Shown here: positions 16,241 through 59,953 of the stretch, in pieces | Layout: each line of letters starts with the position of its first letter | Numbering within the stretch: the stretch's first letter is position 1 | Assembly: GCF_032911225.1 (NCBI RefSeq) | Contig: NZ_CP136600.1 | Coordinates: 1,798,001-1,862,000, forward strand | Length of the DNA: 64,000 nt | Direction: 5' to 3' | From: Thalassotalea fonticola | Lineage (GTDB): Bacteria; Pseudomonadota; Gammaproteobacteria; Enterobacterales; Alteromonadaceae | Notes under the pieces: model-generated | What the model saw: only the letters and a program-made list of their open reading frames with translations | Told to the model about the DNA's origin: nothing | Database searches by the model: none | Translations under genes and position numbers: made by a program

Positions 16241-16242
16241 TA

Positions 16243-17087: not shown

Positions 17088-17099
17088 TAGTCTTCCTGT

Positions 17100-17690: not shown

Positions 17691-17697
17691 AATTTTT

Positions 17698-24208: not shown

Positions 24209-24226
24209 AATTTTATCTATTAGCCT

Positions 24227-43696: not shown

Positions 43697-43761
43697 TTAT
43701 TTTTATCGTACTTTTACAGATCATTATACGGATTGGTATTAGTCGTAGCACATAGCAGAAC

Positions 43762-43799
43762 AAAGGGGCGATACGTTAATTTAACAGCGTGCCCCTTTT
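43762..43799 (+). terminator. Possible terminator between convergent genes
   Basis: AAAGGGGC and GCCCCTTT pair around a 22-nt loop, with TTTTGATATT following on the plus strand. The second arm lies inside the last codons of the exporter gene on the other strand. The loop is large, so confidence is modest. Confidence 0.4.
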
Positions 43800-46096
43800 G
43801 ATATTGTTTGCTGGTTGGTTTTTATTTGCGGTAAAGCATACAGTGCTGGTAGCAAGAGTATATCGGCCAACAACGCCGCGACAAAGGTAACGCTGGCAAT
43901 AACACCCATATCGTTAATCGCAATAAGTTGATTACTCAGCATAGATAAAAAACCCGCCACTAATGCAAATGTTGTATAGATAACGCCTTTACCGGCACTG
44001 TCTAACATTAATTGAATTTGTGCCTGCACCGGCATGTTTTCTTTAGCTAACGATCTTAACTTGGTCAATAAATGAAAGCTATTATCAACCACAATACCAA
44101 TGGCGATAGCTAACACTACCGCTGTGCCAATTCTTACTTTTATTCCGGTTAAAGCCATGAAGGCTAAAGGTATTAAAATGGGTAAAAAATTTATAATAAT
44201 GGCAATAATCACCAATCGTTTTTCTTTTAACGCGACAATAACAATTGGAATTATGATGACAAAAGCAGTGCATAGAGTAATGATCATATCGATTAAAATT
44301 TGATTCATACCTTGTTGGGCAAGCCACCACTGCCCGACAATATCGACTTTAAATTCACTGCCTAAATGTTGCTTCGCCAAATCTTGTATGTGTTTGGTAT
44401 ACAGCATTGCTTGCTTAGAGCCTATATCAGCAATACGAATTTGCAGGGCAACAACGGTATTACTTTCATTAATCAGTTCAGCAAGATTTAATTGCTCAGA
44501 AGGTAAATGTCGCAGTTGTTCTATCGAGTTTTTGTATTGCAATTCATTATTCAGACTGGGTAACAAGTGAAATATAGAATGAATTGTGCCGGTATGCTCT
44601 AACGCTTTAATTGCGTCTATAAATGTTGTTAGTTTATTGACAGAGTTATGTGTAAAAACGTGCTCACCGTCAACTCGTTTAACTCTGATATCAGGCCCTA
44701 AGAAGCCAGTAAATTTTTGCTCTAATAAGGTTTGCGCAACTCTTATGGGGTGCTGCTGAGCTAACTCTTCGTTAAACTTTTGCTCGATATTTATGAAATT
44801 AAAACTGAGCAGGCAAACAACAATAACTCCCCCGGTGCCGCACATAACCTTGTATGGTTGTATCGTGGCAAAGTTAGCCATTTTATACATAAAGCTAACC
44901 GTTGTTTTGGCGAATTTATTATCGATAATGTTTGGCTGTAACAAAATTTTCCGAAGTAAAAATGGGATCAATAGCTGATTTGCCAACCAGAGTTGGATAA
45001 CGGCAACAGCGACGACTAAACCAAAATTTTGAATAATAATGAGTTTGGCCATAAGCAAAGAGAAAAAACCGGCAGCGGTAGAAATTGAGGTGTAAAAACA
45101 CGCTGGCGAGGTAGTAAAGAGCATATCCTCAATCGCAACGTCTGTTTTACGCTCTAGCGAATATTTTCGTAAATATGCTAGGACCATATGAATGGCATCG
45201 GCCACTCCAATAACCAGTATAACGGCTGGCACAACACTATTGATAATGGTTACCGGAATATTTAACCAGCCCATAACCCCAAGACACGAAACAATCACCA
45301 AAAACACCGGCGTAAGTACAATCAATAATACCCGCCATTGTTTTAATACTAGATAAACCAGCATTGCGACAAATACAGTGGTAAGAACTGTGGCAATGAA
45401 TTGATCGATTAGGATCTGTTCAGCATAGGTTGCTTCGACTATTGAAACACCTGATTTATAGACTTGGGTATTTTCAGGTAAATGGTTATTAATTTTACTT
45501 GTTATATTTTCAATAATGAACTGACGTTGCTGCAAGTCACTCAATGGCGGAATAAGCTTTACGGCTAATAAGGTATATTGTTTGTCCTTTGATAACACCA
45601 ATCGATAAGCATCAATATTATCAGCAATTTGCTGTAAACGTTTTTGTAAATCTAGCTCTTCGTTGAAGGATTCTACAGGAAACGCCGGCATTAGTTTTAA
45701 GGTAGGATATTGTTTCGATGATGGCTCGGTAACCAGGTTGTGCAAGGTTGTTAAACTTAGCACTCGAGCAACGCCATTAACCTCTGTTATCTGCGTAGAC
45801 AACTCATTTAAGTTTAAAATAAAGCCCGGCTGTAAGATATTTTGATTATGCAAAATAAAAGTTACATAACTGCCAGACGCTTGGCCAAATGTTTGCTCAA
45901 ATTGTTGGGTAATTTGATATTGCGAGCTTTGTGTTAAAAAAAATGGTTTGAATGAAAAATCATAGCGCAGCTGAAAAATTCCCAGGCTTAATATCAGCCA
46001 AATGATAAAACATGGCACTAAGATCAAACGCTGATTTTTGCCTATCAACTTTTGCAGGTTTAGATAATTTTGATGAACCTTAGTAGAAAAATCCAT
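43781..46096 (-). CDS. MMPL/RND-type exporter
   Basis: A roughly 771-residue membrane protein with two similar halves. Each has one helix, a large periplasmic loop and a bundle of five helices. Conserved helix segments are GVADAIHMVLAYLRKY in the first half and IAIGIVVDNSFHLLTKL in the second, as in MMPL/hydrophobe-exporter RND proteins. The ATG at 46096 was preferred to a TTG at 46102; both give the same protein apart from two residues. It is the last gene of the carrier-protein operon and is the likely route for the product or a lipid intermediate out of the cytoplasm. Confidence 0.88.
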   Translation of the reverse strand: MDFSTKVHQNYLNLQKLIGKNQRLILVPCFIIWLILSLGIFQLRYDFSFKPFFLTQSSQYQITQQFEQTFGQASGSYVTFILHNQNILQPGFILNLNELSTQITEVNGVARVLSLTTLHNLVTEPSSKQYPTLKLMPAFPVESFNEELDLQKRLQQIADNIDAYRLVLSKDKQYTLLAVKLIPPLSDLQQRQFIIENITSKINNHLPENTQVYKSGVSIVEATYAEQILIDQFIATVLTTVFVAMLVYLVLKQWRVLLIVLTPVFLVIVSCLGVMGWLNIPVTIINSVVPAVILVIGVADAIHMVLAYLRKYSLERKTDVAIEDMLFTTSPACFYTSISTAAGFFSLLMAKLIIIQNFGLVVAVAVIQLWLANQLLIPFLLRKILLQPNIIDNKFAKTTVSFMYKMANFATIQPYKVMCGTGGVIVVCLLSFNFINIEQKFNEELAQQHPIRVAQTLLEQKFTGFLGPDIRVKRVDGEHVFTHNSVNKLTTFIDAIKALEHTGTIHSIFHLLPSLNNELQYKNSIEQLRHLPSEQLNLAELINESNTVVALQIRIADIGSKQAMLYTKHIQDLAKQHLGSEFKVDIVGQWWLAQQGMNQILIDMIITLCTAFVIIIPIVIVALKEKRLVIIAIIINFLPILIPLAFMALTGIKVRIGTAVVLAIAIGIVVDNSFHLLTKLRSLAKENMPVQAQIQLMLDSAGKGVIYTTFALVAGFLSMLSNQLIAINDMGVIASVTFVAALLADILLLPALYALPQIKTNQQTISKGARC

Positions 46097-46103
46097 ACTC
46101 AAA

Positions 46104-46328
46104 TTAATCTATATTAAAGAGATCCTGCAATTGACCAACATTTTCAACACTTTTCAATTCTATTTGGCCAAAACTGATCCCGTATAACTCTTGCATTTCG
46201 ATGATCAGTTCAACTAAGGTGAATGAATTATCGACTAAATCAAGCATTTTGGTTTTTGCACTAATCTTATCTTCCGGGCAGGCCAAAATATTTGCCATGT
46301 CTGAAAAAAACTGTTTTTCATCTACCAT
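46104..46328 (-). CDS. Acyl carrier protein 2
   Basis: A 74-residue acidic helical protein with the phosphopantetheine site LVDNSFTLVELI (Ser at the usual DS position, about residue 35). It would hold thioester-bound intermediates. An AGGAGA site precedes the ATG. It stands between the ferritin-like gene and the exporter, away from carrier protein 1, so the two probably load different substrates. Confidence 0.88.
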   Translation of the reverse strand: MVDEKQFFSDMANILACPEDKISAKTKMLDLVDNSFTLVELIIEMQELYGISFGQIELKSVENVGQLQDLFNID

Positions 46329-46347
46329 TGTTTATCTCCTAAATGAC

Positions 46348-46902
46348 CTACGCTGTCATCATAGTTTCAATTCGGTCTTGATATTCATCCGTTACTTTAA
46401 GATACGCGGCTTTGTCAGCCTCCATAAACCGCTTAATGGTTGACTGTACTTCATTAACACCGTACTCAATTTCCATATTTTTTAAAGCCTTACGTACCCA
46501 CTTTAAGTGCCATACTTCTTCACCAATAATAGTCTCTAATGTTTGAAGTACAATTTTTGGTTGTGAAATTATTTTTTTATGGTGCGAGTATTGCTCGAAA
46601 ACTCTTAATTCAAATACATGGGTAATGGCTAAAACCTCCATTAAATTAGACGGTAAACCCGCGGCCTTTAAATAGTAATCCTGATAACTTCGGGCCAGCT
46701 TAAATGGCTCCATATCTAACTTATTTAAGCAATCTGTCCAATACCTTGAATGTTGTGCTTCATCGGCAAATTGTTGCGTCATATTATGCTGGATTATGCC
46801 AGGCTTCATGCTGCGCGCCAGTTGACCAAAAAATAAGGCGCCGGAAATTTCGGAGGTACGGTAGAAACTCAATAACCAACGGATATTTTCATTTATATTC
46901 AT
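46348..46902 (-). CDS. Ferritin-like diiron protein
   Basis: A 184-residue four-helix protein. Metal ligands fit the ferritin-like pattern: Glu18, Glu48-x-x-His51 (DEAQH), Glu98 and Glu129-x-x-His132 (EEVWH). Such proteins act as oxidases or oxygenases or bind iron; a catalytic role is likely here given the neighbours. I chose the ATG at 46902, which has AAGGAG upstream and overlaps the PPTase stop by four bases; the frame to 46932 would run into that gene. I do not recognise a characterised homologue. Confidence 0.78.
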   Translation of the reverse strand: MNINENIRWLLSFYRTSEISGALFFGQLARSMKPGIIQHNMTQQFADEAQHSRYWTDCLNKLDMEPFKLARSYQDYYLKAAGLPSNLMEVLAITHVFELRVFEQYSHHKKIISQPKIVLQTLETIIGEEVWHLKWVRKALKNMEIEYGVNEVQSTIKRFMEADKAAYLKVTDEYQDRIETMMTA

Positions 46903-47516
46903 AATGTACTCCTTTGCGAGAATGCCACGCATAATGCCCCGACATCATCAACAATGCATTTATAGTAAAATAACCAACTAGGATGATTATCAACCGTAGC
47001 TATGCCTGTCATCGCGCTCGGTTGGTCTAGTTGAAAATCAATTAACGCCAACTGTTCATTATTCATTGCCGCTTTGAATAACGCTTCTTTTACCGTCCAA
47101 AGGCGAACAAACTCTTTATCATATTGCTCACTGCTTAACGTTGATAGCCAAGATTGTTCGGTGTTATTAAGAAACCAGTGTGCCATTTGGGGTTTTACTT
47201 TATGCCATGCTTCAAAATCGACTCCGACCCCAGCAACATCATTCATGGTAATGGCTATTGCCAGGCCGTCATTGTGGGTTAAAGAAAACGCTTGGTTAGG
47301 AAAACTTAATCGCTGTGTATCTGAGCTTTGACCATTTTTTAGCAACAACTCTTTTAAAGCGTTACGTCCTTTTAACCAGTCAGTTTTACGCGATTGGGTC
47401 AAAAAAGAATCATAAACCTTTCTTTCATTAAGGCTCAATTGGCTTAAAGGCAACGGCTGTTCACACTTTTTCAGTGACACGTGTTTACCTGACCATTGGC
47501 TGAGAATTTTATCCAT
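46899..47516 (-). CDS. Sfp-type 4'-phosphopantetheinyl transferase
   Basis: A 205-residue PPTase that converts apo carrier proteins to the holo form. The Mg-binding VGVDFEAW and the WTVKEALFKA motif are intact. It presumably activates the two carrier proteins of the operon. It overlaps the preceding gene by eight bases. A dedicated Sfp-type enzyme marks the locus as secondary metabolism. Confidence 0.93.
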   Translation of the reverse strand: MDKILSQWSGKHVSLKKCEQPLPLSQLSLNERKVYDSFLTQSRKTDWLKGRNALKELLLKNGQSSDTQRLSFPNQAFSLTHNDGLAIAITMNDVAGVGVDFEAWHKVKPQMAHWFLNNTEQSWLSTLSSEQYDKEFVRLWTVKEALFKAAMNNEQLALIDFQLDQPSAMTGIATVDNHPSWLFYYKCIVDDVGALCVAFSQRSTL

Positions 47517-48642
47517 TAACTTTTACCCCTTGCGTAACTGTGAAAGAAGTTTGTTTGTTATCCGTTAGTCGGCCCCATTTATTTGCAATTAAATAACAAC
47601 ACACTTTCGGCAGCAGTGTATTCACATCAAAATTTAGTTCTACATTCGAACAATCTCTGGCACGTTTATTATCAACCGCTTTATTAACGTATAACTGCTG
47701 ACTAAACGGCGACATAACCTCTAGTGCCTGCCCTAATATACTGCCTAACGATTGAGTACCATCAATTAGTACCTTAAATGCCGGCCAACTGGCAAAGCGC
47801 GGTTTCAAAATGCGTTTCTGCACAAATTCATCATGCAAATTAAATTGCAGATACACTTCATCAATAAGCTTACCCAACGCCAAAGAATGTTGCTCATCAA
47901 TTGATGAATGAAAAAAACCACGGCTTTCATTAAGTAATAATTGGCCACATAAATCGGCCGATTGATCTCTAGTGGTTAAATAAATTTTTGTTGACTCATT
48001 GCCGGGCATTACGGCCAACAAGCCATAAAAAAGTAACCGTAAGGTTTGATGAAACACATTGTATTGATGTACTTCACCTAAATCATTATCAGCAACTATG
48101 GTGGCCACGCGCACAATTTGCCATGGCAAATCAGCAAATTCTTCAATCAATATTTTTTCAGCATTAAATTTTGACCACTCATAATAATTGGCAAATTCCG
48201 GTGTTGGATGAATAGCGGTTTCATTTAACGCTTTGTTATCTAAACCTGCTGCATATAATGTGCTGATTAATGAAATACATTTTAGCTTTTGGCATTTTTC
48301 GGCGAACAACAATAACTTGCGTGTACCTAATACGTTTACTTGATAGGCATCATCTTTTTCAACGGCAAAGTTGGTAATGGCTGCACAATGCACAATATGA
48401 GTGATTTCTGTGGCGTTTATATCAGCAAATACCGCTTCATCCGCCAGTTCACCAAAGGCTATTTTACAACGAGGGTCGGTTAACAATGAGGCTAACCGTT
48501 GTTTTTTAATTGCTTTAGATTGTTCACTGCTTGCTTTAACCCACAAACATATTTGCAAATTACTATTGCTTAACAAATAGCTAGCAATTGCATAGCCAAG
48601 ATAGCCATCAGCGCCGGTAATTAAAACAACACCTTTACTCAT
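47509..48642 (-). CDS. Thioester-reductase-like extended SDR
   Basis: A roughly 377-residue NAD(P)-binding protein: glycine motif ITGADGYLGYAIA at about residues 8-20, and catalytic YEWSKFNAEK. Its length and the NAD-binding-4-like shape suggest a reductase that releases a carrier-bound acyl or aminoacyl group as an aldehyde or alcohol. A plain epimerase/dehydrogenase function is the alternative. The ATG at 48642 has AGGAGA upstream and forms an ATGA overlap with the previous gene. Confidence 0.8.
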   Translation of the reverse strand: MSKGVVLITGADGYLGYAIASYLLSNSNLQICLWVKASSEQSKAIKKQRLASLLTDPRCKIAFGELADEAVFADINATEITHIVHCAAITNFAVEKDDAYQVNVLGTRKLLLFAEKCQKLKCISLISTLYAAGLDNKALNETAIHPTPEFANYYEWSKFNAEKILIEEFADLPWQIVRVATIVADNDLGEVHQYNVFHQTLRLLFYGLLAVMPGNESTKIYLTTRDQSADLCGQLLLNESRGFFHSSIDEQHSLALGKLIDEVYLQFNLHDEFVQKRILKPRFASWPAFKVLIDGTQSLGSILGQALEVMSPFSQQLYVNKAVDNKRARDCSNVELNFDVNTLLPKVCCYLIANKWGRLTDNKQTSFTVTQGVKVNG

Positions 48643-49565
48643 AATGTCTCTCCTAATGGCCACTTATCAAAATTATTACCATGTTGACTCAACAAGGCAA
48701 ACAACCACCGCTCGAGTCCAAACGCAACACAAGCAGTTCTCGCTGGCTTACCATTTAAGCTAATGTTGTAGCAATCACTAAAGAAACTGCGATGATTATT
48801 GGTTGATGCTATCGCCAAACCATTTTTCAGGCATAACTCCTGTTTTACCGGCTCAACAAGTTGACTGATAGCTTTGCTGTCATTAGAGGGGTCAAAAAAT
48901 GGATCACTCGCTTGTTGCCATGATGCGTTCAGCCCAAGCTCGTTAGCAAAAGTGCTGATAAACGCCTGCGCTGTTTCGATAAACTTGTCTATCCCGTTCG
49001 GATCGGACAAACATACGACTTCACGCATGGTAAAATTCCATTGTCGTTGTAATGGCGCATAAAATTCTTCGCGGCGATGACAGGTGCATTTGGTGGTTAA
49101 GTACCTTGTCTCATCAAGGCTATGGTTTTTAAAGCGATGATAAAAGTGATAGCACGAGGCTGGCGTTAATACTTGCTTCGTTGCTTGCCAGTCGACATTT
49201 TCATTTACAGAACTTGGGGTTGTTGCATTTGAATTGATTGCACTTTGCTTAAACTTATTTAAATTGTCGCTTTCAGGCTCTGGCGTATAGGCAAAGGTTG
49301 CAAGGTGAGGGAACGAATCACAATAACCGGTTGGCGCTAAATCTGCTATTGAGATAAAATTTGGGAACAAATATTGAACTGCATTTAACTGCTCTGCCCA
49401 TTGCTCAATCCGTGCATCAAGCAAGTTTAAATATTTCAATAAGTCACCAGACAACGCAGCATAGCCATCGCTATGCCATTGTAGATCGTGCCATTGCAGA
49501 TCCCCCCCGTGTAAATCGTCTAATTGTTCTGCTTTATACTTGCTTTTATTCTCGACAAAACACAT
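48639..49565 (-). CDS. Amino acid:[carrier protein] ligase, SerRS-like
   Basis: A 308-residue protein of the truncated class II seryl-tRNA-synthetase family that lacks a tRNA-binding arm and charges a carrier protein with glycine or alanine. Motif 2 is CHRREEFYAPLQRQWNF and motif 3 ACVAFGLERWLFALL. Cys138, Glu182 and Cys279 fit the three-ligand zinc site described for these ligases. About residues 95-130 are a Ser/Asn-rich insertion that looks like a flexible linker. The start overlaps carrier protein 1 by 20 bases, so the two are tightly coupled. The amino acid is not readable from sequence. Confidence 0.85.
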   Translation of the reverse strand: MCFVENKSKYKAEQLDDLHGGDLQWHDLQWHSDGYAALSGDLLKYLNLLDARIEQWAEQLNAVQYLFPNFISIADLAPTGYCDSFPHLATFAYTPEPESDNLNKFKQSAINSNATTPSSVNENVDWQATKQVLTPASCYHFYHRFKNHSLDETRYLTTKCTCHRREEFYAPLQRQWNFTMREVVCLSDPNGIDKFIETAQAFISTFANELGLNASWQQASDPFFDPSNDSKAISQLVEPVKQELCLKNGLAIASTNNHRSFFSDCYNISLNGKPARTACVAFGLERWLFALLSQHGNNFDKWPLGETL

Positions 49566-49818
49566 CTTCGGCCTCCAACGTAAAAAAGCTATTTACAATC
49601 ACCGCGATATTTTTAAAACAACCTGGTAGCAACTGCTGGGCGGTAATTCTATTACCACTGCTTTGTTCAAGTAATAGTAATAAATCAAGTACTTGAAAAG
49701 AGGTAATGAATCGATTTTCAAGCAAAGACGTTTCATTACTCACAGTATTGAAGTCAGTATTTGGATTAACTCGCTGTAAGCATTCGCGTACTAATGTTTC
49801 GGCGTCTGATTTATTCAT
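49546..49818 (-). CDS. Aminoacyl carrier protein 1
   Basis: A 90-residue carrier-like protein. The stretch ENRFITSFQVLDLL aligns with the usual DSLxxVEL region, so the serine after IT (about residue 39) is the likely phosphopantetheine site, although the preceding Asp is replaced by Thr. It lies directly before the SerRS-like ligase and is its likely partner. The ATG overlaps the oxygenase stop (ATGA). Confidence 0.8.
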   Translation of the reverse strand: MNKSDAETLVRECLQRVNPNTDFNTVSNETSLLENRFITSFQVLDLLLLLEQSSGNRITAQQLLPGCFKNIAVIVNSFFTLEAEDVFCRE

Positions 49819-50672
49819 CCTACATCCCCTAAAAGTTGCTGTTGGTAAAGCCAGCCAAGCCTTTTTTGTTGCAAGGCATCTCGATGCAGCTTGGCACGTT
49901 CACTATTAAATACAGCCATGCTTAAACCGGCACAATCGGTTAAACCAGCGTCGAAATAGGCGTCAGGGCAATAAAACTGTTTCCAGGTAGTGAGTAAAAA
50001 ACCATTTAGGTGCTGATTTATTTTGAGTAGTTGCTGTTCATCAATATTATTTTTCTGTTCATTAAACCAATATTTTAAAAAGCCTAAGCCAAAAGCTAAA
50101 TGTCGAGACTCTTCTAGATGATGCAAACGGTTAATATCGGCAACAATAGCAACTACATTTTTATCATTCGCAATACGGCGGTTATATTCATCGACAACAG
50201 TTTCAAAAATATAAATTCGAGCAAACAGCAATAACAGCTCTATGTCACCATGGGGTTCAGCAGCAATATCCAAAGCACGTAATGGGTAAACTTTATTAGC
50301 ATACTGGATACAAAACCGTGAAAAATACATCATGTGCTTGGCTTCTTCTTCAATAAAATGCAACAAATACTCAGACATTGCTATTGATGGAAAATTAAAT
50401 AAGTGACTGCTAACAGCGTTAATCAAGTATTTTTCACCATGTACGTTTAAGCTAAAAAAGTTTACTGCTTCATAAAAGCTTAACCGTATTTGCTGTTGCT
50501 CAGTTAATTCATGCCATTGCTTGCTGCCAAATATTGAGATTAATTCAGCAGAAAAAAACCACTGATTCTCAGGCAAGTGTTCAGGCCAAGTAATCGCGTC
50601 AGGCGTTAAAAATTGTTGCTCAGACATGTGCGTTAATTTTTTTAATTGCGTGGTAAACGTTGCAATATTCAT
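49815..50672 (-). CDS. AurF-like diiron oxygenase
   Basis: A 285-residue helical protein with ligands expected of the AurF/p-aminobenzoate N-oxygenase group: Glu80, Glu110-x-x-His113, Glu157, and Glu188-x-x-His191, the last within HHLEESRHLAFG. Members oxidise amines to hydroxylamine, nitroso or nitro groups; others have different roles. The ATG at 50672 forms an ATGA overlap with the KAS gene. Next to an amino-acid-loading pair, oxidation of the amino nitrogen of a carrier-bound amino acid is an attractive guess. Confidence 0.75.
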   Translation of the reverse strand: MNIATFTTQLKKLTHMSEQQFLTPDAITWPEHLPENQWFFSAELISIFGSKQWHELTEQQQIRLSFYEAVNFFSLNVHGEKYLINAVSSHLFNFPSIAMSEYLLHFIEEEAKHMMYFSRFCIQYANKVYPLRALDIAAEPHGDIELLLLFARIYIFETVVDEYNRRIANDKNVVAIVADINRLHHLEESRHLAFGLGFLKYWFNEQKNNIDEQQLLKINQHLNGFLLTTWKQFYCPDAYFDAGLTDCAGLSMAVFNSERAKLHRDALQQKRLGWLYQQQLLGDVG

Positions 50673-51619
50673 ACTTTTTCTACCACCATACATTGCCAAT
50701 TACTGCCAAATCCGGCCATAAAAAGTAACACCAGCTCACCTTTTTTCATTTTCCCGCTGTTATCAAGACGAGACAGGTTAATGATATTGTCGCTGCTGAT
50801 CACATGACCCACATGCGCTAAGGAATCAAACCACGCCTTCTGCTCATCAATCCCTAACAGGCTGGCAAGAATAGCCCAGGCTTTGGCATTGGTATTTTGC
50901 GGAACCACCCAATCGATATCGGTCACCGCCAGATTTATTTGTTGCAGGGTAGCGCTTATTAACTGATGCAAATAAGAGAAGTAACTGCCGACGGTTTCAT
51001 CATCACTGGCACTGACCTGGGCACCATTAGTAAGATGCCGAACCGTTAAAATGCGAAAACCTCGCGGCTTTCGTGACACTAAACAGGCGGCGCCACCATC
51101 TGAAATTAAATTATACGCTTGCTCGTAATAAGCGTTTCTGGGAAAGTTATCAGCGCTGATACACAAAATATTATTGATATTATCTTCTGCCGTTAAGAAG
51201 TTGTTAGCGATACGTATACTGCCGAGCATGCAAGTACATGCTTGCTGAGTTAAGCCAATAACAAAAGCGTTATCCATACCAAATTCAACTTGTAATTTAC
51301 TGGCAGGAAACACCATTAAATCTTTTACGTCTCGGCTGCTTTCAAATTCTTCGCTTTGATGACTATTGGCATTTTGCGGTAAACAATTTGCGTAAATAAT
51401 ACAATCAATTTCAGCAGTATCGATTTGACTGTCAACAAGCGCCTGACACGCCAGTTGATAAGCAGTTTCACCTTTCGAACAAACAAAATGCTGTTCAAAA
51501 CCTGACTCTTTAAGTGCTTGCATAGTTGAGAGCAAAACACCGGCTTGTTCAGCTTGTTTTAACGAACGACATTCACTGCCTAATGAATACCCCAATTGTT
51601 GTAAATAGCTATCAGTCAT
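50669..51619 (-). CDS. KAS III-like acyltransferase with altered active site
   Basis: A 316-residue thiolase-fold protein of the FabH family. The nucleophile Cys128 is present in QQACTCML. The usual VPHQAN histidine is replaced by Gln241 (VVPQNTN), and the usual GN asparagine by His272 (VGHVISSD). The fold therefore looks intact while the standard Cys-His-Asn triad is not. Decarboxylative condensation is doubtful; transfer of an acyl group to an amine or hydroxyl is possible. AGGAG precedes the ATG. Confidence 0.82.
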   Translation of the reverse strand: MTDSYLQQLGYSLGSECRSLKQAEQAGVLLSTMQALKESGFEQHFVCSKGETAYQLACQALVDSQIDTAEIDCIIYANCLPQNANSHQSEEFESSRDVKDLMVFPASKLQVEFGMDNAFVIGLTQQACTCMLGSIRIANNFLTAEDNINNILCISADNFPRNAYYEQAYNLISDGGAACLVSRKPRGFRILTVRHLTNGAQVSASDDETVGSYFSYLHQLISATLQQINLAVTDIDWVVPQNTNAKAWAILASLLGIDEQKAWFDSLAHVGHVISSDNIINLSRLDNSGKMKKGELVLLFMAGFGSNWQCMVVEKV

Positions 51620-51628
51620 AATTAACTC

Positions 51629-52195
51629 CTACAGCAAACCGGCAGGAATAAAACGACCCGTTGTGCTCATATAACACTGATAGCTCCCGCCAAACACCTG
51701 TGTTAAGCGAGTTTCTTCACGTTTGGCTGTTACAGTTAAAACAATGATGCCATAAGCCAAGCAGCCAAAGAGCAAGTAATGCGGAAATAGCATTACACTT
51801 GCGCAAAATGCTAAAAGAAACGCCGAATAAAATGGGTGCCTAATGCTTTTATATGGACCCCAGGTAACTAACTCCTGTGGTTGGTCATTGACTTGATGCC
51901 ATAACGCCGGCTTAAATTCATGTGCATGAATAGTGCAGGCAATCAGCCCAATTGAGGCAATGCTAAATATTGCCGCACTGATTTGAGCAAGCTCGAATAA
52001 TAGTGCTGAATACATCTGTAGAGAGATTAACTGCTCAACATAGCCCATAATCAACACCACAACGACCACCAAGAAAGGTAATGCGGTAATACACCACTTC
52101 AGATTAAATGAGCCATCTCGGCGAAATATTATCAAAGGTAACACGGCAATTACGATAAAGTTACTCATCACCATCACAAAAGATACGGTATTCAT
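51629..52195 (-). CDS. ICMT/PEMT-like membrane methyltransferase
   Basis: A 188-residue integral membrane protein with about five helices. The C-terminal motif GPYKSIRHPFYSAFLL and the KREETRLTQVFG segment match isoprenylcysteine carboxyl methyltransferase/phospholipid methyltransferase-like proteins. It could O-methylate or N-methylate the lipid-like product at the membrane, using S-adenosylmethionine. AGGAG precedes the ATG, two bases after the ligase gene. Confidence 0.8.
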   Translation of the reverse strand: MNTVSFVMVMSNFIVIAVLPLIIFRRDGSFNLKWCITALPFLVVVVVLIMGYVEQLISLQMYSALLFELAQISAAIFSIASIGLIACTIHAHEFKPALWHQVNDQPQELVTWGPYKSIRHPFYSAFLLAFCASVMLFPHYLLFGCLAYGIIVLTVTAKREETRLTQVFGGSYQCYMSTTGRFIPAGLL

Positions 52196-52197
52196 AA

Positions 52198-53964
52198 TTA
52201 GCTCTCCTGTTGTTGATGGGGCTGATTTGCATACTGTTCAATAAGTTGCTCCACCTGCAAACGCTTAATTTTGCGAGTGGTGGAACGGGGCAAATCTTGA
52301 GCAAGCACAATGACTTTAGTCGGCCGTTTCCAGCGCACCAATTTTTCACTGCGCTGCTCGATGATCTGCTGCAGTTTTTGTTGTAAGGCGTATTGATCTT
52401 GCTTAAATTCTTCGCTGAGTTGTTCACTGGCAACCAGTACTGCACATACTTGTAATCTACCTTGATATAGCCCTTCATTTGCTTTTAACGCAACAACGCA
52501 GCCTTCTTTAATGTCTGGGTGCGAAAATAACTGCGGCTCAATTTGCTCTGGTTGTAAATTTTGGCCATCGGCTAACACTATGGTGTTTTTCTTCCTGCCG
52601 GTTACATAAAGAAAACCTTTTTTGTCGATATAACCAAGATCGCCAGTATGCAACCAACCTTGTTGATCAATCGTTTTTGCCGTTAAAGTTTCATCGCCAT
52701 AATACCCTGCCATTACATGATGGCCACGGGTAAGGATTTCACCTACAGCGTAGGTGTCTAATTGATTTTTTTTGTCTATTTTAACTTGGCAACCTGGTAA
52801 GGGTTTGCCAACTGAGCCATAACGGTTTTTATAAGGTGTATTGGCGCTAATAACCGGACTGGTTTCAGTCATGCCATAACCTTGATATACGGTAAAGCCA
52901 AGATCAGTAAAAAACCTTAAGGTGGTTTTATCCAGTGGTGCGCCACCACACACAAAGTGCTTAAACTTGTTACCAAACTTTTTATGAACCTGGTGAAATA
53001 TTGTTTTCCTAAGGGCTACTGGTAGGTATTTACTGATATGTAAAAACGAGTTAAACAGTAGCTGTTTAGCTTTAGACTCTTTGGCGACTTGCTGTAAAAT
53101 AGACTTTTTCATCAATGATAAAAACAATGGTACGGCAATTAGAAACGTTGCGTTTTGAGCTCGCATGGTTTTTAACAGATCGTCGGGAATTAAGCTGTTT
53201 AAATAACAAACCTGCCCACCTCCCCATAACACGCCTAACAATCCGGCTGACAGCTCTAATAAATGATGCAATGGCAAAATAGATACACATACTTCAGCGC
53301 CATCAGTTTTCATCAATCGATTTAAGTTTTCAACTTGGCCGACAATGTTTCTAAAGGTGATCTCTACGCCTTTGAACTTACCGGTAGTGCCCGAGGTGTA
53401 ACAGATCACGGCTTTACTGTTTAATTTAACACGTTGATGATATTTGCTTAACGAGTTAATAGAAGATTCGAGTGCTGTTAACTGGCTTTTATAACATTCA
53501 AGTTCAACAACAAAATTAATACTAGTCATTTGTTTTTGCAGGGTTAAACCTGTGGCTAGCATTTTACTAGAAGCAATAAGCGCTTTCGGTTTGGCATCTG
53601 TTAAAATGAGCAGCAGCTCTACTTCAGTTAACTGTGGATCAACGGGGACCACAATTGCGCCGCAAGATAGAATGGCTAAAAATGCGATGGCCCAATGTGG
53701 GCGCGCTTCACTTAACAACGCGACCCGATCAGCTCTGCGTATACCTTTAGCAAGTAATAATTTAGAAAACTGCTTTACCTCATCAGCCAGTTCCGCATAG
53801 GTAAATTGATCATCAACGTTAAGCTCACCACCTAACAAATGTCCAGACAAAGCGATTTGCGAAGCAAATTCATTCGCCTTAGCTCGTAGCGTCGCCGCAA
53901 CATCAACTTTAAACTCCGATTGCGAGTACTGCTCTAATTTATCTACCAATAATGCTGTATTCAT
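52198..53964 (-). CDS. Acyl-AMP ligase (ANL superfamily)
   Basis: A 588-residue adenylating enzyme. The phosphate loop is YTSGTTGKFKG. YGMTETSP and the hinge region WLHTGDLGYIDKKGFLYVTGRKKN are intact, and a C-terminal Lys lies near RSTTRKIKR. It would activate a fatty or other carboxylic acid and pass it to CoA or a carrier protein. I chose the ATG at 53964, with GGAGAAGG upstream; the frame to 54033 has a weak N terminus. It is the first gene of the operon. Confidence 0.88.
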   Translation of the reverse strand: MNTALLVDKLEQYSQSEFKVDVAATLRAKANEFASQIALSGHLLGGELNVDDQFTYAELADEVKQFSKLLLAKGIRRADRVALLSEARPHWAIAFLAILSCGAIVVPVDPQLTEVELLLILTDAKPKALIASSKMLATGLTLQKQMTSINFVVELECYKSQLTALESSINSLSKYHQRVKLNSKAVICYTSGTTGKFKGVEITFRNIVGQVENLNRLMKTDGAEVCVSILPLHHLLELSAGLLGVLWGGGQVCYLNSLIPDDLLKTMRAQNATFLIAVPLFLSLMKKSILQQVAKESKAKQLLFNSFLHISKYLPVALRKTIFHQVHKKFGNKFKHFVCGGAPLDKTTLRFFTDLGFTVYQGYGMTETSPVISANTPYKNRYGSVGKPLPGCQVKIDKKNQLDTYAVGEILTRGHHVMAGYYGDETLTAKTIDQQGWLHTGDLGYIDKKGFLYVTGRKKNTIVLADGQNLQPEQIEPQLFSHPDIKEGCVVALKANEGLYQGRLQVCAVLVASEQLSEEFKQDQYALQQKLQQIIEQRSEKLVRWKRPTKVIVLAQDLPRSTTRKIKRLQVEQLIEQYANQPHQQQES

Positions 53965-54560
53965 GATTTCACCTTCTCCTAACAAGCCCATGCTCATTTT
54001 GAAAGTTCGATAGAGATCAAATTTTTTAGTCAAAATTCAATCTCCTTTAACCAATATTCAGTTTTAATTTGCAGATTTTGTGCCACATAATCATAATTCA
54101 GTAAGTTGTTGTTTTTACAGCATTGTTAAAAATTGAGCTTCACACACCAGACAAATCTGGCATACATAAGTGTGTTTTCATGCACATAAATGTACTTTCA
54201 TTATCAGTAATCGTTATTGCAGTTACCTAGCCATTAGTACTGCTGTGCGTATCAGTTAGTTTAATCACCTTACCTCGTACAAATTTGCATAACCATTTAG
54301 CAATTATGTACACCAACAATTCTTCACTTAACAATCAATCAAATATTAATACCTATATAAAACAATCTATTAAGCGTATTTATAAAATCGGTTCAGTTCT
54401 TGCTCTTAGGTATTACGAGTGAAAGTGTATTTTGTACACCTTACAAAATACATGTAGCGAAGAAGGTAATTTGATCAATAAAGAATAGTTGAAAATTTGA
54501 TGTTTTGCTTTCTAACAATTCCGGCAATAAACGCCGGGTAACTAACTGGAGACAACACTG
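53965..54560. other. Divergent promoter region of the biosynthetic operon and the hydrolase
   Basis: About 600 bp of AT-rich DNA with no supported gene. It must contain promoters for the biosynthetic operon (minus) and the secreted hydrolase (plus). The clearest element is the inverted repeat at 54427-54451. A short hairpin CCGGC...GCCGG lies just before the hydrolase ribosome-binding site. Confidence 0.5.
54427..54451. promoter_or_regulatory. Perfect 10-bp inverted repeat, possible operator
   Basis: GTATTTTGTA-CACCT-TACAAAATAC: arms are perfect complements with a 5-bp spacer, a typical size for a dimeric regulator. It lies about 110 bp upstream of the hydrolase start. No T-run follows, so it is not a terminator. 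The regulator is unknown. Confidence 0.5.
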
Positions 54561-55883
54561 ATGAAAACCTTAATGTTATTAATTTCAATAGCTTTTATGA
54601 GCTTTACTGCAACAACTAATGCCGCTTCTAGCTATTTTATTGATCAAACTAAACTGCCCTTCACAGCATTGCCGGGGGCAACAGCCTATTGGGGGGTACA
54701 CACCAATGCGGGTTATCATATTGAAGTACCCGATGACTGGAATGGTGAGCTGGTAGTATGGGCACACGGGTTTAGAGGTTTTGGTAAAACAGAGCTTACT
54801 GTTGATGACCATCCAATGCGTCACTTTTTGATTGCCCAAGGTTATGCCTGGGCAGCATCATCTTACAGTAGAAATGACTACGATGTGACCACGGGAGTGC
54901 AAGACACCTTGGCTTTGCTAAAAAGGTTCAATGGTATTGCTGCAAAGCCGGATAAAATTTATATGACTGGCTTATCGATGGGTGGCCATATTACTGCGGT
55001 AATTATTGAGCAGTTCCCGAAATTATTTGCCGGAGCCATGCCTATTTGTGGCGCCGTAGGTGACTATGAAACCTTTGATTTTGTATTGGATTTCAACTTA
55101 GCCGCGCAGCAGTTAGGTACCGATACTTCTATTTTCCCAGTAGAACCATTTACTTATGTCACCGCAACGGTACCAAGTATCAAGGCCAATTTAGAATCTG
55201 CACCTAATACGTGGCCTGTGGGATTAAATCAACAAGGCGAAAACTTGAAAAATTTAGTGATGTTGCATTCAGGTGGCGATCGTCCAAATTTTGACAGTGC
55301 TTGGTTTTTCTGGAATAACTTTGCTGAAGTTGAGTCAGGGACAGGGCCAGGAAACTTTCTATTTGATTTAGGCTTAAGCGATGGCGTAATGCCAAGAAAT
55401 CCTGGGAATACAGCTGAAAATATCGATGTGGTGTATCAGTTTGATACTAACCCTGAGCTAAGCCCTGAAGAACAAGCGTTTAATGACTCAATATTTAGAG
55501 TGGCACTAGCACCACAAAGCAAAAATCCAAACGGCTTATCGCAAGTACCCGTGATCAACGGCAACCTGCCTATCCCGGTACTGACTATGCACAACATCGG
55601 CGATTTATTCGTACCAATTAAGAATGAAATTGCCTATGCCACAAAAGTTAAACAACAGGGTAAACAAGACTTGCTAGTAACTAGGGCTTACAGAGGTGTA
55701 ATGCACTGTGATTTCACTGCAAATGAAATGGTATCGTCATTCTTAGACTTGGTTGACTGGGTTGAAAATGGCAATAAACCAGCTGGTGATGATTTCCTGG
55801 ATGCTAACAATGTTGCGGCTGATGACTTTGGTTGTCAATTTACTTATGGTAACCACCCCTTTGACACTGCATGCCCAGGGTAA
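54561..55883 (+). CDS. Secreted alpha/beta hydrolase
   Basis: A 440-residue protein with a signal peptide (MKTLMLLISIAFMSFTATTNA). The nucleophile motif GLSMGGH and the VVWAHGFRGF oxyanion-hole-type segment identify an alpha/beta hydrolase; a late histidine in RGVMHCDFT may complete the triad. Esterase or peptidase function cannot be separated by sequence. TGGAG precedes the ATG. A strong terminator follows, shared in position with the convergent protease gene. Confidence 0.78.
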   Translation: MKTLMLLISIAFMSFTATTNAASSYFIDQTKLPFTALPGATAYWGVHTNAGYHIEVPDDWNGELVVWAHGFRGFGKTELTVDDHPMRHFLIAQGYAWAASSYSRNDYDVTTGVQDTLALLKRFNGIAAKPDKIYMTGLSMGGHITAVIIEQFPKLFAGAMPICGAVGDYETFDFVLDFNLAAQQLGTDTSIFPVEPFTYVTATVPSIKANLESAPNTWPVGLNQQGENLKNLVMLHSGGDRPNFDSAWFFWNNFAEVESGTGPGNFLFDLGLSDGVMPRNPGNTAENIDVVYQFDTNPELSPEEQAFNDSIFRVALAPQSKNPNGLSQVPVINGNLPIPVLTMHNIGDLFVPIKNEIAYATKVKQQGKQDLLVTRAYRGVMHCDFTANEMVSSFLDLVDWVENGNKPAGDDFLDANNVAADDFGCQFTYGNHPFDTACPG

Positions 55884-55905
55884 AGTAAATATTACCGAGT
55901 AAGCT

Positions 55906-55938
55906 AAACCAGCCTGACCTAGTCAGGCTGGTTTTATT
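55906..55938 (+). terminator. Terminator between hydrolase and protease genes
   Basis: Arms AAACCAGCCTGAC and GTCAGGCTGGTTT pair around a 3-nt CTA loop, with TTATTT following on the plus strand. It lies 23 bp past the hydrolase stop. On the minus strand the tail is less T-rich, so it serves the hydrolase best. Confidence 0.88.
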
Positions 55939-55955
55939 TGAATTATGATCTTTTA

Positions 55956-58900
55956 TTATTGATTAACCTCTACCGGGTTATCCAATACAGTTGTTACAAA
56001 GGTATTTCCCTCCCGTTCAATACTACCAAAAGTGAAAGTTACACTTGAAACATTCTGCTTTAAGTTAGCCTTTTTAATGGTACATGTGCCGTCAGCTTCA
56101 GTTGTGCAGCTGCCACTGCCGCTAGTACCATTACTCCAGTTACCACTAATCACCGCACTTTCAACAGCATTTTCGGATCCATTATTTTCCATCACAGAAA
56201 CCGTTATGATTGCATCCCACCTAGATGGCTTATTTCTAATTTCAGAACTTCCTGATAGGTCTATATCGACTGCAACCTCTGTAGGTTGTGGCGGTTCCGG
56301 TGGTTCAGGAGGTTCAGTGACACTGCCTTCATAGATTGCAAGGTAATCAACAAATAGACTGGCATTATTATTATTGCCTTTTGTTCTGTCTGTATCTTCA
56401 ACGCGCAAGTAAAATGCGCCTGCACTGTGATCAGGTATTGGCACTGTGAGTGTATTTGAGCTGCTAGTGGAGCTCAGTGTATAAAAAGGAATATAGTTGC
56501 TATTATCACTTGAATAGGAAAATTGAATGGTTTCTCCATCGCCGCCGTCATTTCGCATCCAAGCGTTAGCATTAATTTCCAAGCCAGTACCATTATCTAA
56601 TTGAAAACTCCACGTATGTAGCAGTTTATCTCGATTACCACCAACACGAACTTCAGTTATTTCTTCTGACGCACCATCATCTACATGGGTATCAACAAAG
56701 GTGCCAGTAATTACTCCTTTGTTCGCAATTTCAGCCGTTGCCTGTTGCTCTGTTGTGGCGCTAGGATCGTATACGGTCAAAGTTAGAGGTACTGTTAAAG
56801 GCGAGTTAACACTGTCATTACTATAAATACAAAGTACTCCATTGTACTCATTTAGCGCCAAACCAGTTGAATTGAAAGTTACAGTAACATCATTAGGGAG
56901 CGTTCCATCGGTACTGTCAGCAATAGGAGAGACGCTAGCCCAAGATAAGCTAATATTATCAGGCGCTAAGCAATTATCAGCAGTGTCGGTTTCAATACTC
57001 CAAGTCAATAGTTCACTACCAGTATTAGCTATGATTAAAGCTTGGAACGTTTCAACATCGACACCTTGCTCTGATGATAGACTCGCTGGGTTAACTGCAA
57101 TGTGAGGAGCAGGAATACTAGTGACAGTATTATGTACAGTATCGCAATCGTTATCGCCTTCAATAGCCGTTACACACGCTTGATTGGAAAGTAACGCATC
57201 ATCAATAATTTCCACATCGTCTATGTACCATCCCACACCGCCTACTAAGCCATCGGTAGCCATTCTAAATCGAATTTGTACAGTTTCACCTGCGTAGCTA
57301 CTAAGATCAACATTGGTTTGAATGTAACCTCCGCTGTTTCCAGAGAATGCTTTACGTCCACTAATAGCACTAGCCGGATTTGAAGTGATAGTACTGTTAT
57401 AAGGTCCCTTATACATATGTTGACCTGCATCGTCCCAATCAACTCCATTTATAGAAATTTCAACAACACCACCATCCCAATTGGCCTCAGTGTCATAATG
57501 ATGCCAGAATTTTAAAATTGCATCACCGGTTAGTTCTACAGGACTGTTCAAAGTTAGGTACTGATCGGTACTTGTGGCGATATCTTCTGCAAAAGCAGCA
57601 TAAACAGGGCTATGAGCACTTTCAGTGGAAAGCGACCAATCATCTGTACCACTACCGTGGTTAATAATCCATTGGCTGCTACCACTTTCCATATCGTCTA
57701 AAACAATTGGTGTTGCTGCAGAGGAGTCTACTATTACTTCGAATGAACAGTTTTGACTTCCAGCAATTGCCATATCCCCAATCGGGAAGGTAACAATTTC
57801 ACTTACCAATGAACCGCCACAAGTAGCAGAACCATTAATGTAGCTTGTATGATTGGGGACCGGGTTTGTTACTGTAACACCACTTAATGAACCAGGAGTG
57901 TTATTTTCAATTTGCAAATAATAAGTTAATGTTGCCCCTGCCTCCACAGACTCAGAACTGGAAGTAGTTGTAATTTTTAATATCTCTTGGCAAAAAAGCG
58001 GCACATCAAATGCTTCTATTCCATCGCTACGATTTGATGCACTGCCTTGTTCAGCACTAAAGCCCAGACCTCGTTCGGCAAAGGCTTCCCAGATAATACA
58101 TTGATTAGCACCCGCATTGTTATTTTGGTCAGCTAAGAGTATGGCGTTTCTGGCATCGACAAAGCCCGGTGAACAGGGCTGCATTTTCAAGCCATCAATC
58201 ACCAGTTGTAATGCAATATTATTACCGCCGCTACCGGTATATAAATCAAGTTCAAATCCATGCTCATTAATTAAAGCCCAGGTCATTTGCCAAAGCATGG
58301 CTGCCCAGGTTGAGCCCACACCATGAGGGACAGCTGCAGTTTTAATCGAGTCGTAAGTACGAGGGTCAATCGACATATCTGTGCTGTATGGATAATCTCG
58401 AATACCATCACCCTCTATCGACTCGCCAAGAACATAAGTACCTATCCCTCGACTATCACTACCTTCATCGCCAGCTTCAATAGTCATAATCAAGGCAAAG
58501 TAATCGCTCCATCCTTCCCCTGCTTGTTCGGTATTATTCAAGCAAGTAGCAGCAGATGGTCCGCCGGTAAGACGGTTTGAAATACCATGGCCATATTCAT
58601 GGACAATAATACCGTTATCCAGATCGCCATCACGCATAGGGCTGGTTTGGTTCCACAAGTACATTTGCATACGTGGAGCTTGACCATCTGGCGGGGTTGC
58701 AAAATTGGCATTGTTTGTACCTCCGCCATCCTGAGCCTCGGCATTTACTGCGTCATTGCCTAATCCACCATTATCACTGTTATCATTTTGAAAATTACCA
58801 CTATTTTCATCAAAACCATATTGGTAGAAAACGTCATGAATAATGTTATTCCAATAGAATAGATTAGTAACGGCTGCATCCTGATATTGATTAGGCTCTT

Positions 58901-59792
58901 GAAAAAGTTCCAAAGAAAAAGAAAAATCTAGGCCAGAATTACAAGCTCGCGCATTATTTCCTCCCGTAGGGGAATTGCTGTTATCTGTATCAAGATAGGC
59001 ATCTACATTGTTACCTGATGTACATTGGTCACTTACCCAGGTAGTAGATGTGCCAATAGGCATGCTCAAATAATCACGAACTCCATGATTAGGACTTTCT
59101 AAGGGCACCGGATAGATTTCATATACCTCATGGGCAACGTAATTCTTTCGATCCAAAACCGCACCATTGATAGCATCAACTCTCATGCTCCACCAGTTTT
59201 TGGCATCAAGCTCATAAATCTCCATATCCCATGCCAAGCGCAGCATGTTTTTAGCAACTGGCTGATAAACCAGTTTGGTTTGTATTGGATTACGAGATAT
59301 AGGACCTAAGTTAGGGTCTATCCCTAAACTTTTGGCCGCGGCAGAAATCGCTTGCCCACGAGGCACTAACGCCAATGTTGAATTTACCGCAGTATCTATA
59401 CTCGCCATAAAGCGATTACCAAGGTTAATAACACTGCCATCAGCAGCAATATTTATATTAATGCTGGCATTATGTACTCCAATACCCTGGTAATGTTGCT
59501 GAAAATAAATATGAGTAACGCCATTATGCGATGAAGTGTACTGATTAGTTACTACCATACCGGCAATATCAATATTTGAGAGGCCTAATTCACCTTTGTT
59601 TTGATCTATATACCTACGTGCTATCGCCAGCGGTTTTCCTGCATTAGGGCCGGTTAGAAATGTTGCAGGATTCCCTTTAGCTGCGGAGTTCGAGGATACG
59701 GCTTGGACATATGAGGAAGTAATGCTTAGTACTGCAACTAACACAAAACCAAACAAAGTATTAACAGAAATTAATTTCTTACATTCAGGCAT
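55956..59792 (-). CDS. Secreted M36-family (fungalysin) metalloprotease
   Basis: A 1278-residue secreted zinc protease. A signal peptide is followed by an FTP-like propeptide (about residues 40-210) and the M36 catalytic domain with HEYGHG at 398-403 and the third ligand region GEGWSD. C-terminal modules follow: a DUF11-like beta domain (about 600-690), an immune-inhibitor-A/MAM-like domain (about 695-870), further beta domains and a proline-rich EPPEPPEPP linker before the end. There is no GlyGly-CTERM anchor, so it is probably released, perhaps by type II secretion. A c-di-GMP riboswitch sits directly upstream of its ribosome-binding site. Confidence 0.9.
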   Translation of the reverse strand: MPECKKLISVNTLFGFVLVAVLSITSSYVQAVSSNSAAKGNPATFLTGPNAGKPLAIARRYIDQNKGELGLSNIDIAGMVVTNQYTSSHNGVTHIYFQQHYQGIGVHNASININIAADGSVINLGNRFMASIDTAVNSTLALVPRGQAISAAAKSLGIDPNLGPISRNPIQTKLVYQPVAKNMLRLAWDMEIYELDAKNWWSMRVDAINGAVLDRKNYVAHEVYEIYPVPLESPNHGVRDYLSMPIGTSTTWVSDQCTSGNNVDAYLDTDNSNSPTGGNNARACNSGLDFSFSLELFQEPNQYQDAAVTNLFYWNNIIHDVFYQYGFDENSGNFQNDNSDNGGLGNDAVNAEAQDGGGTNNANFATPPDGQAPRMQMYLWNQTSPMRDGDLDNGIIVHEYGHGISNRLTGGPSAATCLNNTEQAGEGWSDYFALIMTIEAGDEGSDSRGIGTYVLGESIEGDGIRDYPYSTDMSIDPRTYDSIKTAAVPHGVGSTWAAMLWQMTWALINEHGFELDLYTGSGGNNIALQLVIDGLKMQPCSPGFVDARNAILLADQNNNAGANQCIIWEAFAERGLGFSAEQGSASNRSDGIEAFDVPLFCQEILKITTTSSSESVEAGATLTYYLQIENNTPGSLSGVTVTNPVPNHTSYINGSATCGGSLVSEIVTFPIGDMAIAGSQNCSFEVIVDSSAATPIVLDDMESGSSQWIINHGSGTDDWSLSTESAHSPVYAAFAEDIATSTDQYLTLNSPVELTGDAILKFWHHYDTEANWDGGVVEISINGVDWDDAGQHMYKGPYNSTITSNPASAISGRKAFSGNSGGYIQTNVDLSSYAGETVQIRFRMATDGLVGGVGWYIDDVEIIDDALLSNQACVTAIEGDNDCDTVHNTVTSIPAPHIAVNPASLSSEQGVDVETFQALIIANTGSELLTWSIETDTADNCLAPDNISLSWASVSPIADSTDGTLPNDVTVTFNSTGLALNEYNGVLCIYSNDSVNSPLTVPLTLTVYDPSATTEQQATAEIANKGVITGTFVDTHVDDGASEEITEVRVGGNRDKLLHTWSFQLDNGTGLEINANAWMRNDGGDGETIQFSYSSDNSNYIPFYTLSSTSSSNTLTVPIPDHSAGAFYLRVEDTDRTKGNNNNASLFVDYLAIYEGSVTEPPEPPEPPQPTEVAVDIDLSGSSEIRNKPSRWDAIITVSVMENNGSENAVESAVISGNWSNGTSGSGSCTTEADGTCTIKKANLKQNVSSVTFTFGSIEREGNTFVTTVLDNPVEVNQ

Positions 59793-59813
59793 AGGGCGAC
59801 CACTCAGGTATAT

Positions 59814-59907
59814 GCAGCCTGGCTATCTTGTTTCCTTACCGCTTACATAGGACACGAGGACCCGTGGCTTTCCGTCCTCGCCTTTCGACGAGTTTGGCTT
59901 TGTCGTT
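59814..59907 (-). ncRNA. c-di-GMP-I (GEMM) riboswitch
   Basis: On the minus strand GCCAAAC, CGAAAG, GGACGGAAAGCC, ACGGGTC and the closing AGCCAGGCTGC occur in the order and spacing of the GEMM class I consensus. The GAAA-type loop and its receptor-like segments are recognisable. The 3' end is about 21 bases from the ATG of the M36 protease, so the switch could mask the ribosome-binding site or alter transcription. The direction of control cannot be read from sequence. Confidence 0.9.
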
Positions 59908-59953
59908 AAACTCTATAAAGCATAGTACAACGTTAACCATTTTGTAGCTGGTT

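Follow-up and report, generated by a model that had tools for sequence, protein, structure and literature searches.

Eleven genes on the minus strand of Thalassotalea fonticola contig NZ_CP136600.1 (positions 43781-53964 of the window, the 64,000-nt stretch of DNA that was analysed) form one unit and, judged from sequence comparison, belong to an unnamed cluster family that is present in several phyla and retains a five-gene core. We give about an even chance to the reading that these genes specify an assembly line of dissociated proteins, free of NRPS, in which an acyl chain would be transferred to the nitrogen (or N-O group) of an amino acid bound to a first carrier protein, CP1. Each function of an NRPS module, that is activation, carriage, N-oxidation, acylation and reductive release, would seemingly be held by one small separate protein, and the line would probably yield a new lipid-like, N-oxidised metabolite that might bind metals or be chemically reactive. 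The reactions, amino acid, order of steps and product given below are those suggested by gene linkage, gene families and conserved residues. A literature search of an open-licence paper collection retrieved no description of this gene set.

The ORF calls bear out the initial annotation, which had placed eleven minus-strand genes with overlaps or gaps below 25 bp at these coordinates: neighbouring genes overlap or sit at most 19 bp apart throughout, with junctions, from g11 upwards, of +1, +19, -34, -8, -25, -20, -4, -31, +9 and +2 bp. Its gene-family calls are likewise backed by profile matches, g09 and g02 lying near the cut-off and the carriers being called on a serine. Scanning the operon for promoters and terminators gave no signal above that of shuffled sequence.

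Genome comparison showed that all eleven genes recur in two congeners. They were also found contiguously, at 20-45% identity, in a genome of another order (G615), and because of these two observations they are treated as one unit. The orthology of the G615 acyl ligase and MMPL genes to g01 and g11 is less sure, since identity is only 25% and 20%, respectively. A scan using the KAS III gene and two short peptide patterns retrieved 31 further loci from several phyla, most of which retain the KAS III, AurF, carrier, ligase and reductase genes; as the KAS III gene was the entry point to them, the KAS III-AurF linkage is conditional on that gene. The core order is KAS III-AurF-CP1-ligase-SDR, the successive pairs being adjacent (same strand, -200 to 400 bp) in 31/33, 32/32, 29/29 and 25/28 loci holding both genes. 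Five loci (L083-L086 and L089) retain this core while lacking the acyl-side genes. Beyond it the order varies, with SDR-PPTase adjacent in 13/23 loci, PPTase-ferritin-like in 13/23 and ferritin-like-CP2 in 15/24. L071 has a weak PPTase match of 30 bits, located on the opposite strand, and contig ends cut the ferritin-like gene of L077 and the ligase of L081. The alignments took in 35 KAS III, 25 g09, 29/32 SDR and 27/34 AurF sequences, and wide neighbourhoods were examined for 4/27 other genomes with an AurF match. Nothing useful came from scanning genome contigs with g06 alone, nor from g09 queries against viral contigs and against plasmids.

The block is patchily distributed, being present in 3/15 genomes of the genus (this one included), in 1/250 genomes of the order of G615 and in 2/398 of a phylum sample, and it is absent from the corresponding site in one congener. 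Such patchiness and the empty site would fit genes that are merely adjacent, unrelated or decaying, but the ORFs are intact, a genome of another order has the whole set with 20-45% identity, the core order persists in other phyla, and catalytic residues are kept; this explanation appears highly improbable. Chance adjacency is ruled out by the contiguous recurrence in another order and by the core in other phyla. The earlier claim that the genes belong together is thus upheld, and conservation in relatives, which it had named as a check, was found in the two congeners, in another order and, for the core, in other phyla, so that the block is not unique to this genome.

On the nitrogen side, g06 (48639-49565) encodes a putative 308-aa SerRS-like amino acid:carrier protein ligase (tRNA-synt_2b, 33.1 bits). 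On the archaeal-type serS model, 518 residues long, its alignment covers 234-498, that is the catalytic core only, with no tRNA-binding part, and it is homologous to Bll0957 (3mey; E 3.7e-25, residues 31-303). C162, E182 and C279 were present in 33/33 aligned sequences and presumably form the Cys/Glu/Cys metal site of SerRS-like ligases. Its score against the amino acid--[ACP] ligase model NF005479 (131.7 bits, cut-off 357) assigns it to the same superfamily but, because it falls under that cut-off, to a different subfamily. The carrier proteins CP1 (g05, 49546-49818) and CP2 (g10, 46104-46328) had zero Pfam matches and were called on their invariant serine, S40 in 31/31 and S35 in 24/24 aligned sequences, with weak ACP matches (17 bits) in addition for g10. 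The CP1 gene sits between the AurF and ligase genes in 29/29 loci having both neighbours, and we propose CP1 as the amino acid carrier and CP2 as the acyl carrier. Both would be armed by the 4'-phosphopantetheinyl transferase g08 (46899-47516; ACPS PF01648, 44.7 bits), whose D100, E102 and K148 are kept in 20 sequences.

The ligase g06 would load CP1 with a small amino acid, which is suspected to be glycine. Three loci (L061, L064 and L079) contain no SerRS-like ligase within about 20 kb and instead hold a free-standing AMP-binding/adenylation protein. Of these proteins, those of L061 and L079 were scanned and both exceeded the TIGR01733 cut-off, and the L064 protein aligns to both; all three agree around the specificity motifs. 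The best solved match of the replacement adenylation protein, run for L061 only, was LgrA.

The AurF-like diiron oxygenase g04 (49815-50699) matched AurF PF11583 with 100.3 bits against a cut-off of 29.6. E77, E119, H122, E166, H193, E197 and H200, which we take to be the AurF-type metal ligands, are kept in at least 40/41 sequences. By sequence, one search against solved structures gave no match and another gave two weak ones (E 0.0014 and 0.0047). We propose that g04 is an N-oxygenase acting on CP1, where it would oxygenate the carrier-bound nitrogen before or just after acylation. Azoxy pathways of the valanimycin type require a tRNA-dependent transferase, and such a pathway was rejected on that account; azirine lipids were also rejected, the literature search having given nothing usable.

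The AurF-like enzyme, CP1 and the ligase could take part in another chemistry, which we judge possible but rather unlikely. Here, g04 would convert glycyl-CP1 to nitroacetyl-CP1, g03 would do no more than esterify the nitroacetyl unit or shuttle it between the two carriers, and the ICMT-like protein would be a membrane nitronate O-methyltransferase. Three plasmid records (L048-L050) have the AurF-CP-SerRS-like ligase triad but not this KAS III, and L052 has AurF and ligase; a nitronate monooxygenase gene adjoins in 3/4 of these loci, L048 having a methyltransferase gene as well. In an AurF tree whose bootstrap is unsettled and whose branches are long, a 100/100 branch places their AurFs with those of the block; that side of the tree is unresolved and also contains L034-L036. 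In line with a shuttle, ChlB3 is reported, in the part of the literature available, to transfer an acyl group to a carrier. Nevertheless, none of the eleven genes encodes a nitronate monooxygenase, and the acyl ligase, CP2 and the SDR are explained less simply.

For the KAS III-fold protein g03 (50669-51619; ACP_syn_III_C, 61.6 bits), profile alignments to FabH and ChlB3 revealed a C128-H272-D277 triad, with Q241 occupying the FabH His position. The FabH Cys-His-Asn triad is absent, g03 having C-Q-H at those columns, whereas the genome's own FabH, used as a control, has C-H-N and T in the same alignment columns. Among ungapped homologues, the cysteine was found in 35/35, the glutamine in 35/35, the histidine in 34/34 and the aspartate in 34/34. 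H272 and D277 align to His296 and Asp301 of ChlB3 (7eqi), five residues apart in both proteins, at a low overall similarity (20% over 288 residues). A Cys-His-Asp triad has been reported, in the sources available in part, for acyltransferases forming C-N, C-O and C-S bonds, and AfcL, which has it, is described as moving a chain onto an aminoacyl thioester, lysyl-S-CoA (available text of PMC12186527). Since this triad is present, g03 is probably a joining enzyme, an acyltransferase rather than a ketosynthase. Of the earlier designation as a variant KAS III, the fold stands, and the ChlB3/CerJ-type triad makes an acyltransferase role more probable than that of a ketosynthase.

In the preferred assembly line, g03 would accept the acyl chain on Cys128 and, assisted by His272-Asp277, hand it to the nitrogen (or N-O group) of the CP1-bound amino acid, giving a hydroxamate-like acyl amino acid. 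If so, a ketosynthase-fold acyltransferase would replace the condensation domain, and the parts would be small enough for one-by-one reconstitution.

A thiolase-like C-C bond site made of Gln241 and His272 was also considered. It was demoted and kept only for a nitroacetyl Claisen case, because the ChlB3 alignment puts His272 and Asp277 on the acyltransferase pair. In this non-malonyl Claisen condensation, which we find quite doubtful, g03 would form a bond between the alpha-carbon of nitroacetyl-CP1 and the acyl chain; that glycine N-oxidation would drive it, with nitroacetyl-CP1 as carbon nucleophile in place of malonate decarboxylation, seems equally improbable. The KAS III fold, the acidification of the alpha-carbon expected on chemical grounds from oxidation to nitro, and the replacement of the FabH decarboxylation His by Gln in all homologues would suit it, but C128-H272-D277 corresponds to the triad described for acyltransferases that make C-N, C-O and C-S bonds. 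Were it true, SDR reduction would lead to a sphingoid-base-like 2-nitro (or 2-amino) 1,3-diol without a PLP enzyme.

For the acyl side of the preferred assembly line, the AMP-dependent acyl ligase g01 (52198-53964; AMP-binding PF00501, 265.9 bits) has family members in 29/34 loci. Its 41%-identical relative in L068 belongs to a fusion protein that also has MFS and PlsC-type acyltransferase domains, presumably the layout of Aas acyl-ACP synthetases. We propose that g01 charges CP2 with a fatty acid, which the ferritin-like diiron protein g09 (46348-46932) would perhaps modify. The sole family match of g09 is Rubrerythrin (22.7 bits, slightly below the cut-off of 22.8); by sequence, it had no match at E 0.1 among solved structures in one search and a best E of 0.0053 in another. 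The ICMT-like integral-membrane methyltransferase g02 (51629-52195; PEMT/ICMT 25.9/24.1 bits, barely over cut-off) belongs to a family found in 24/34 loci, conserves R119 H120 P121 and E160 E161 across 25 sequences, and would methylate. Export would fall to the MMPL-family protein g11 (43781-46102; MMPL PF03176, 75.6 bits), the least constant member among the loci: six loci that scored high for it were seeds of its profile, and 16 further loci reached 21-50 bits. An ICMT-like protein is fused to MMPL in L061.

Finally, g07 (47509-48663; NAD_binding_4 PF07993, 102.8 bits) had been annotated as a reductase-like SDR. The SDR family stands, and the extended SDR is now placed nearest to NRPS thioester-reductase (R) domains, which matched best in a profile search (6vtj 82.4, MxaA 81.0, 8v1x 68.1 and AusA 63.5 bits), UDP-galactose epimerases reaching at most 40.9 bits. 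Against TIGR01746 it scored 81.4 bits, under the curated cut-off of 213.35, and Y161 and K165 were present in 32/32 sequences. Its proposed role is reductive release, in which thioester reduction would free the product as an aldehyde or alcohol. The single pathway first suggested, leading to an N-oxidised amino acid joined to an acyl chain, possibly methylated or reduced and then exported, is in part supported by comparative genomics and conserved active-site residues.

Individual parts have precedents. Glycine-derived nitronate pathways, reportedly treated by He and Ryan in 2021, probably share the AurF-CP-ligase triad on carrier-bound glycine, as neighbouring genes suggest; unlike them, this operon lacks a nitronate monooxygenase and adds the KAS III-fold protein, the R-type SDR and the acyl-side genes. 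Among Bll0957-type SerRS-like ligases (3mey), to which g06 is homologous, a rhizobial relative (L099) has ACP, acyl-CoA dehydrogenase and DUF1839 neighbours. The ham/pvf/mgo systems of Burkholderia and Pseudomonas (fragin, valdiazen) likewise use a carrier-bound amino acid, an AurF-type N-oxygenase and reductase release; the AurF homologue HamC reportedly oxidises valine tethered to a carrier, an R domain releasing the product (available portions of PMC5878181 and PMC11659414). There, according to the same portions, A-T-R lie in one NRPS-like protein with valine as substrate, whereas ligase, carrier and reductase are separate here and are joined by a KAS III-fold protein, a second carrier, an acyl ligase and a methyltransferase. 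None of the eleven genes is of the HamA (heme-oxygenase-like), HamB or HamE type or encodes an A-T-R protein. In the lipothrenin lit cluster, an AurF-like enzyme, an acyl ligase and an ACP lead to N-hydroxy N-acyl threonine. Besides the fatty acyl ligase, the ACP and the AurF-like N-oxygenase, this cluster shares a KAS III-like gene with the operon, but its gene table, in the part available, lists no SerRS-like ligase or R-type reductase, calls the KAS III FabH-like, and the amide is formed by other enzymes (PMC10616846). The afc cluster (AFC-BC11), in whose available description neither a SerRS-like ligase nor an AurF-type N-oxygenase appears and whose product is a beta-alanine-type lipopeptide, resembles the operon in its NRPS-like assembly without condensation domains, its C/H/D AfcL, its fatty acyl-AMP ligase and its lone carrier (PMC12186527).

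Eleven tightly packed minus-strand genes occupy window 43781-53964, as stated in the initial annotation. Neighbouring genes overlap by up to 34 bp or lie no more than 19 bp apart, and the gene families named in that annotation were borne out by family searches. A single sequence identifies the ICMT-like and ferritin-like proteins only weakly, and conserved relatives strengthen both assignments. The Thalassotalea fonticola genome is a single 4.9 Mb contig, and ordinary respiratory complex I (nuo) genes lie at window 12846-26014.

Conservation in related species, which the initial annotation had proposed as a check, was found in two congeners and in G615, a genome of another order. All eleven genes are present in 2 of 14 other genomes of the genus, with 66-93% identity per gene. 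In G615 all eleven are contiguous at 20-45% identity; the eight genes from KAS III to the second carrier protein (CP2) keep the order of the window and MMPL is last in both blocks, while the acyl ligase and methyltransferase genes have changed positions. The block is rare in the samples scanned, being found in 1/250 genomes of G615's order and in 2/398 genomes of a phylum sample, both previously found carriers. Scanning 295 genomes of the window's order with the ligase returned the ligase itself and three weak matches, whose neighbourhoods contained no KAS III or AurF of the block type.

In congener G670, homologues of the flank genes at window 41264 and 59954 are separated by 76 bp, so that a segment of about 16.3 kb is absent. 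Window 43697-59953, which carries the block together with genes for an esterase-like protein and an M36 peptidase, is thus an accessory stretch in a fixed location. Another congener without the block, G666, has a 784-aa ORF after the first flank gene.

Searching named genomes with four KAS III sequences yielded 31 loci. They belong to Streptomyces, Catellatospora and other actinomycetes, Myxococcales, a Ketobacter and other gammaproteobacterial MAGs, Omnitrophota, Obscuribacterales/Melainabacteria, Vicinamibacteria and Bdellovibrionaceae; the three relatives bring the total to 34. AurF occurs in 33, the first carrier protein (CP1) in 32, the SDR in 31, the SerRS-like ligase and the acyl ligase in 29 each, the ferritin-like protein in 25, CP2 and ICMT in 24 each and the PPTase in 23. 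The three loci lacking AurF, CP1 or SDR (L080, L081, L091) end near the KAS III gene. Same-strand adjacency is the rule for KAS III-AurF (31/33), AurF-CP1 (32/32), CP1-ligase (29/29) and ligase-SDR (25/28). The block represents a genuine biosynthetic family that recurs and has no name. In L074 and L077, AurF and ligase diverge from acyl ligase-KAS III-SDR, which points to two modules. Five loci (L083-L086, L089) carry a smaller version with KAS III, AurF, CP1, ligase and SDR alone. In the single one of these scanned (L083, Catellatospora, 13960-16139), DUF3419 and GNAT genes follow this core in place of the acyl-side genes; DUF3419 includes BtaA-type enzymes. At L068 (1423-4968) a relative of the acyl ligase carries fused MFS and PlsC-type acyltransferase domains; an enolase-like gene and a GH3-type gene lie nearby.

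The ligase Cys/Glu/Cys is kept in 33/33 sequences and the conserved serine in both carrier proteins. At L061, L064 and L079 no SerRS-like ligase was found in the roughly 20 kb examined, and one may lie elsewhere on these contigs. A free-standing adenylation protein is present instead; it exceeds the TIGR01733 cut-off in L061 and L079, and in L064 it is assigned by alignment to those two. This swap is the best evidence that the ligase step would be amino acid loading.

At least 40 of 41 sequences retain the AurF-type ligand positions; we take the conserved AurF, ferritin-like and ligase residues to be metal ligands. AurF-CP-ligase sets without block-type KAS III were found in Tistrella and on two Streptomyces plasmids (L048-L050), and an AurF-ligase pair on a plasmid of Agrobacterium vitis F2/5. 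These plasmid sets (L048 12730-17040, L049 12863-17509, L050 12819-15556, L052 12103-15659) are related but different pathways. A nitronate monooxygenase gene adjoins the set in three of the four, and a PPTase gene in three. In the AurF tree a 100/100 branch separates 20 of 22 more distant AurF-like proteins from the block, and the AurFs of these plasmid sets lie on the same side as the block. Because of this adjacency and grouping, oxidation of the nitrogen of a small amino acid bound to a carrier is a reasonable step, with glycine as the leading guess. An Azospirillum plasmid cluster (L053 7073-18179) combines an AurF-like oxygenase with NRPS, PKS and a gene annotated as arginine 2,3-aminomutase.

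Profile searches with the SDR ranked NRPS thioester-reductase domains first (82, 81, 68 and 63 bits; epimerases at most 41). Family searches found that none of the eleven genes encodes a thioesterase, so the product probably leaves by reductive release. The ferritin-like protein, with ligand positions kept in 25/25 sequences and a good structure model (87.9), is nearest to 3ez0, of unknown function, and to aldehyde-deformylating oxygenases. Such kinship beside a predicted aldehyde-forming reductase is suggestive, not decisive. In L061, ICMT and MMPL form a single fusion protein, linking methylation to export; the ICMT ORFs of L064 and L079 are as long as this fusion, and both loci score high for MMPL.

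The gene combination had no match in the open-licence literature searched, and its individual pieces are already known. The block is best read, with an even chance of being correct, as a dissociated assembly line, with a KAS III-fold acyltransferase taking the place of the condensation domain.
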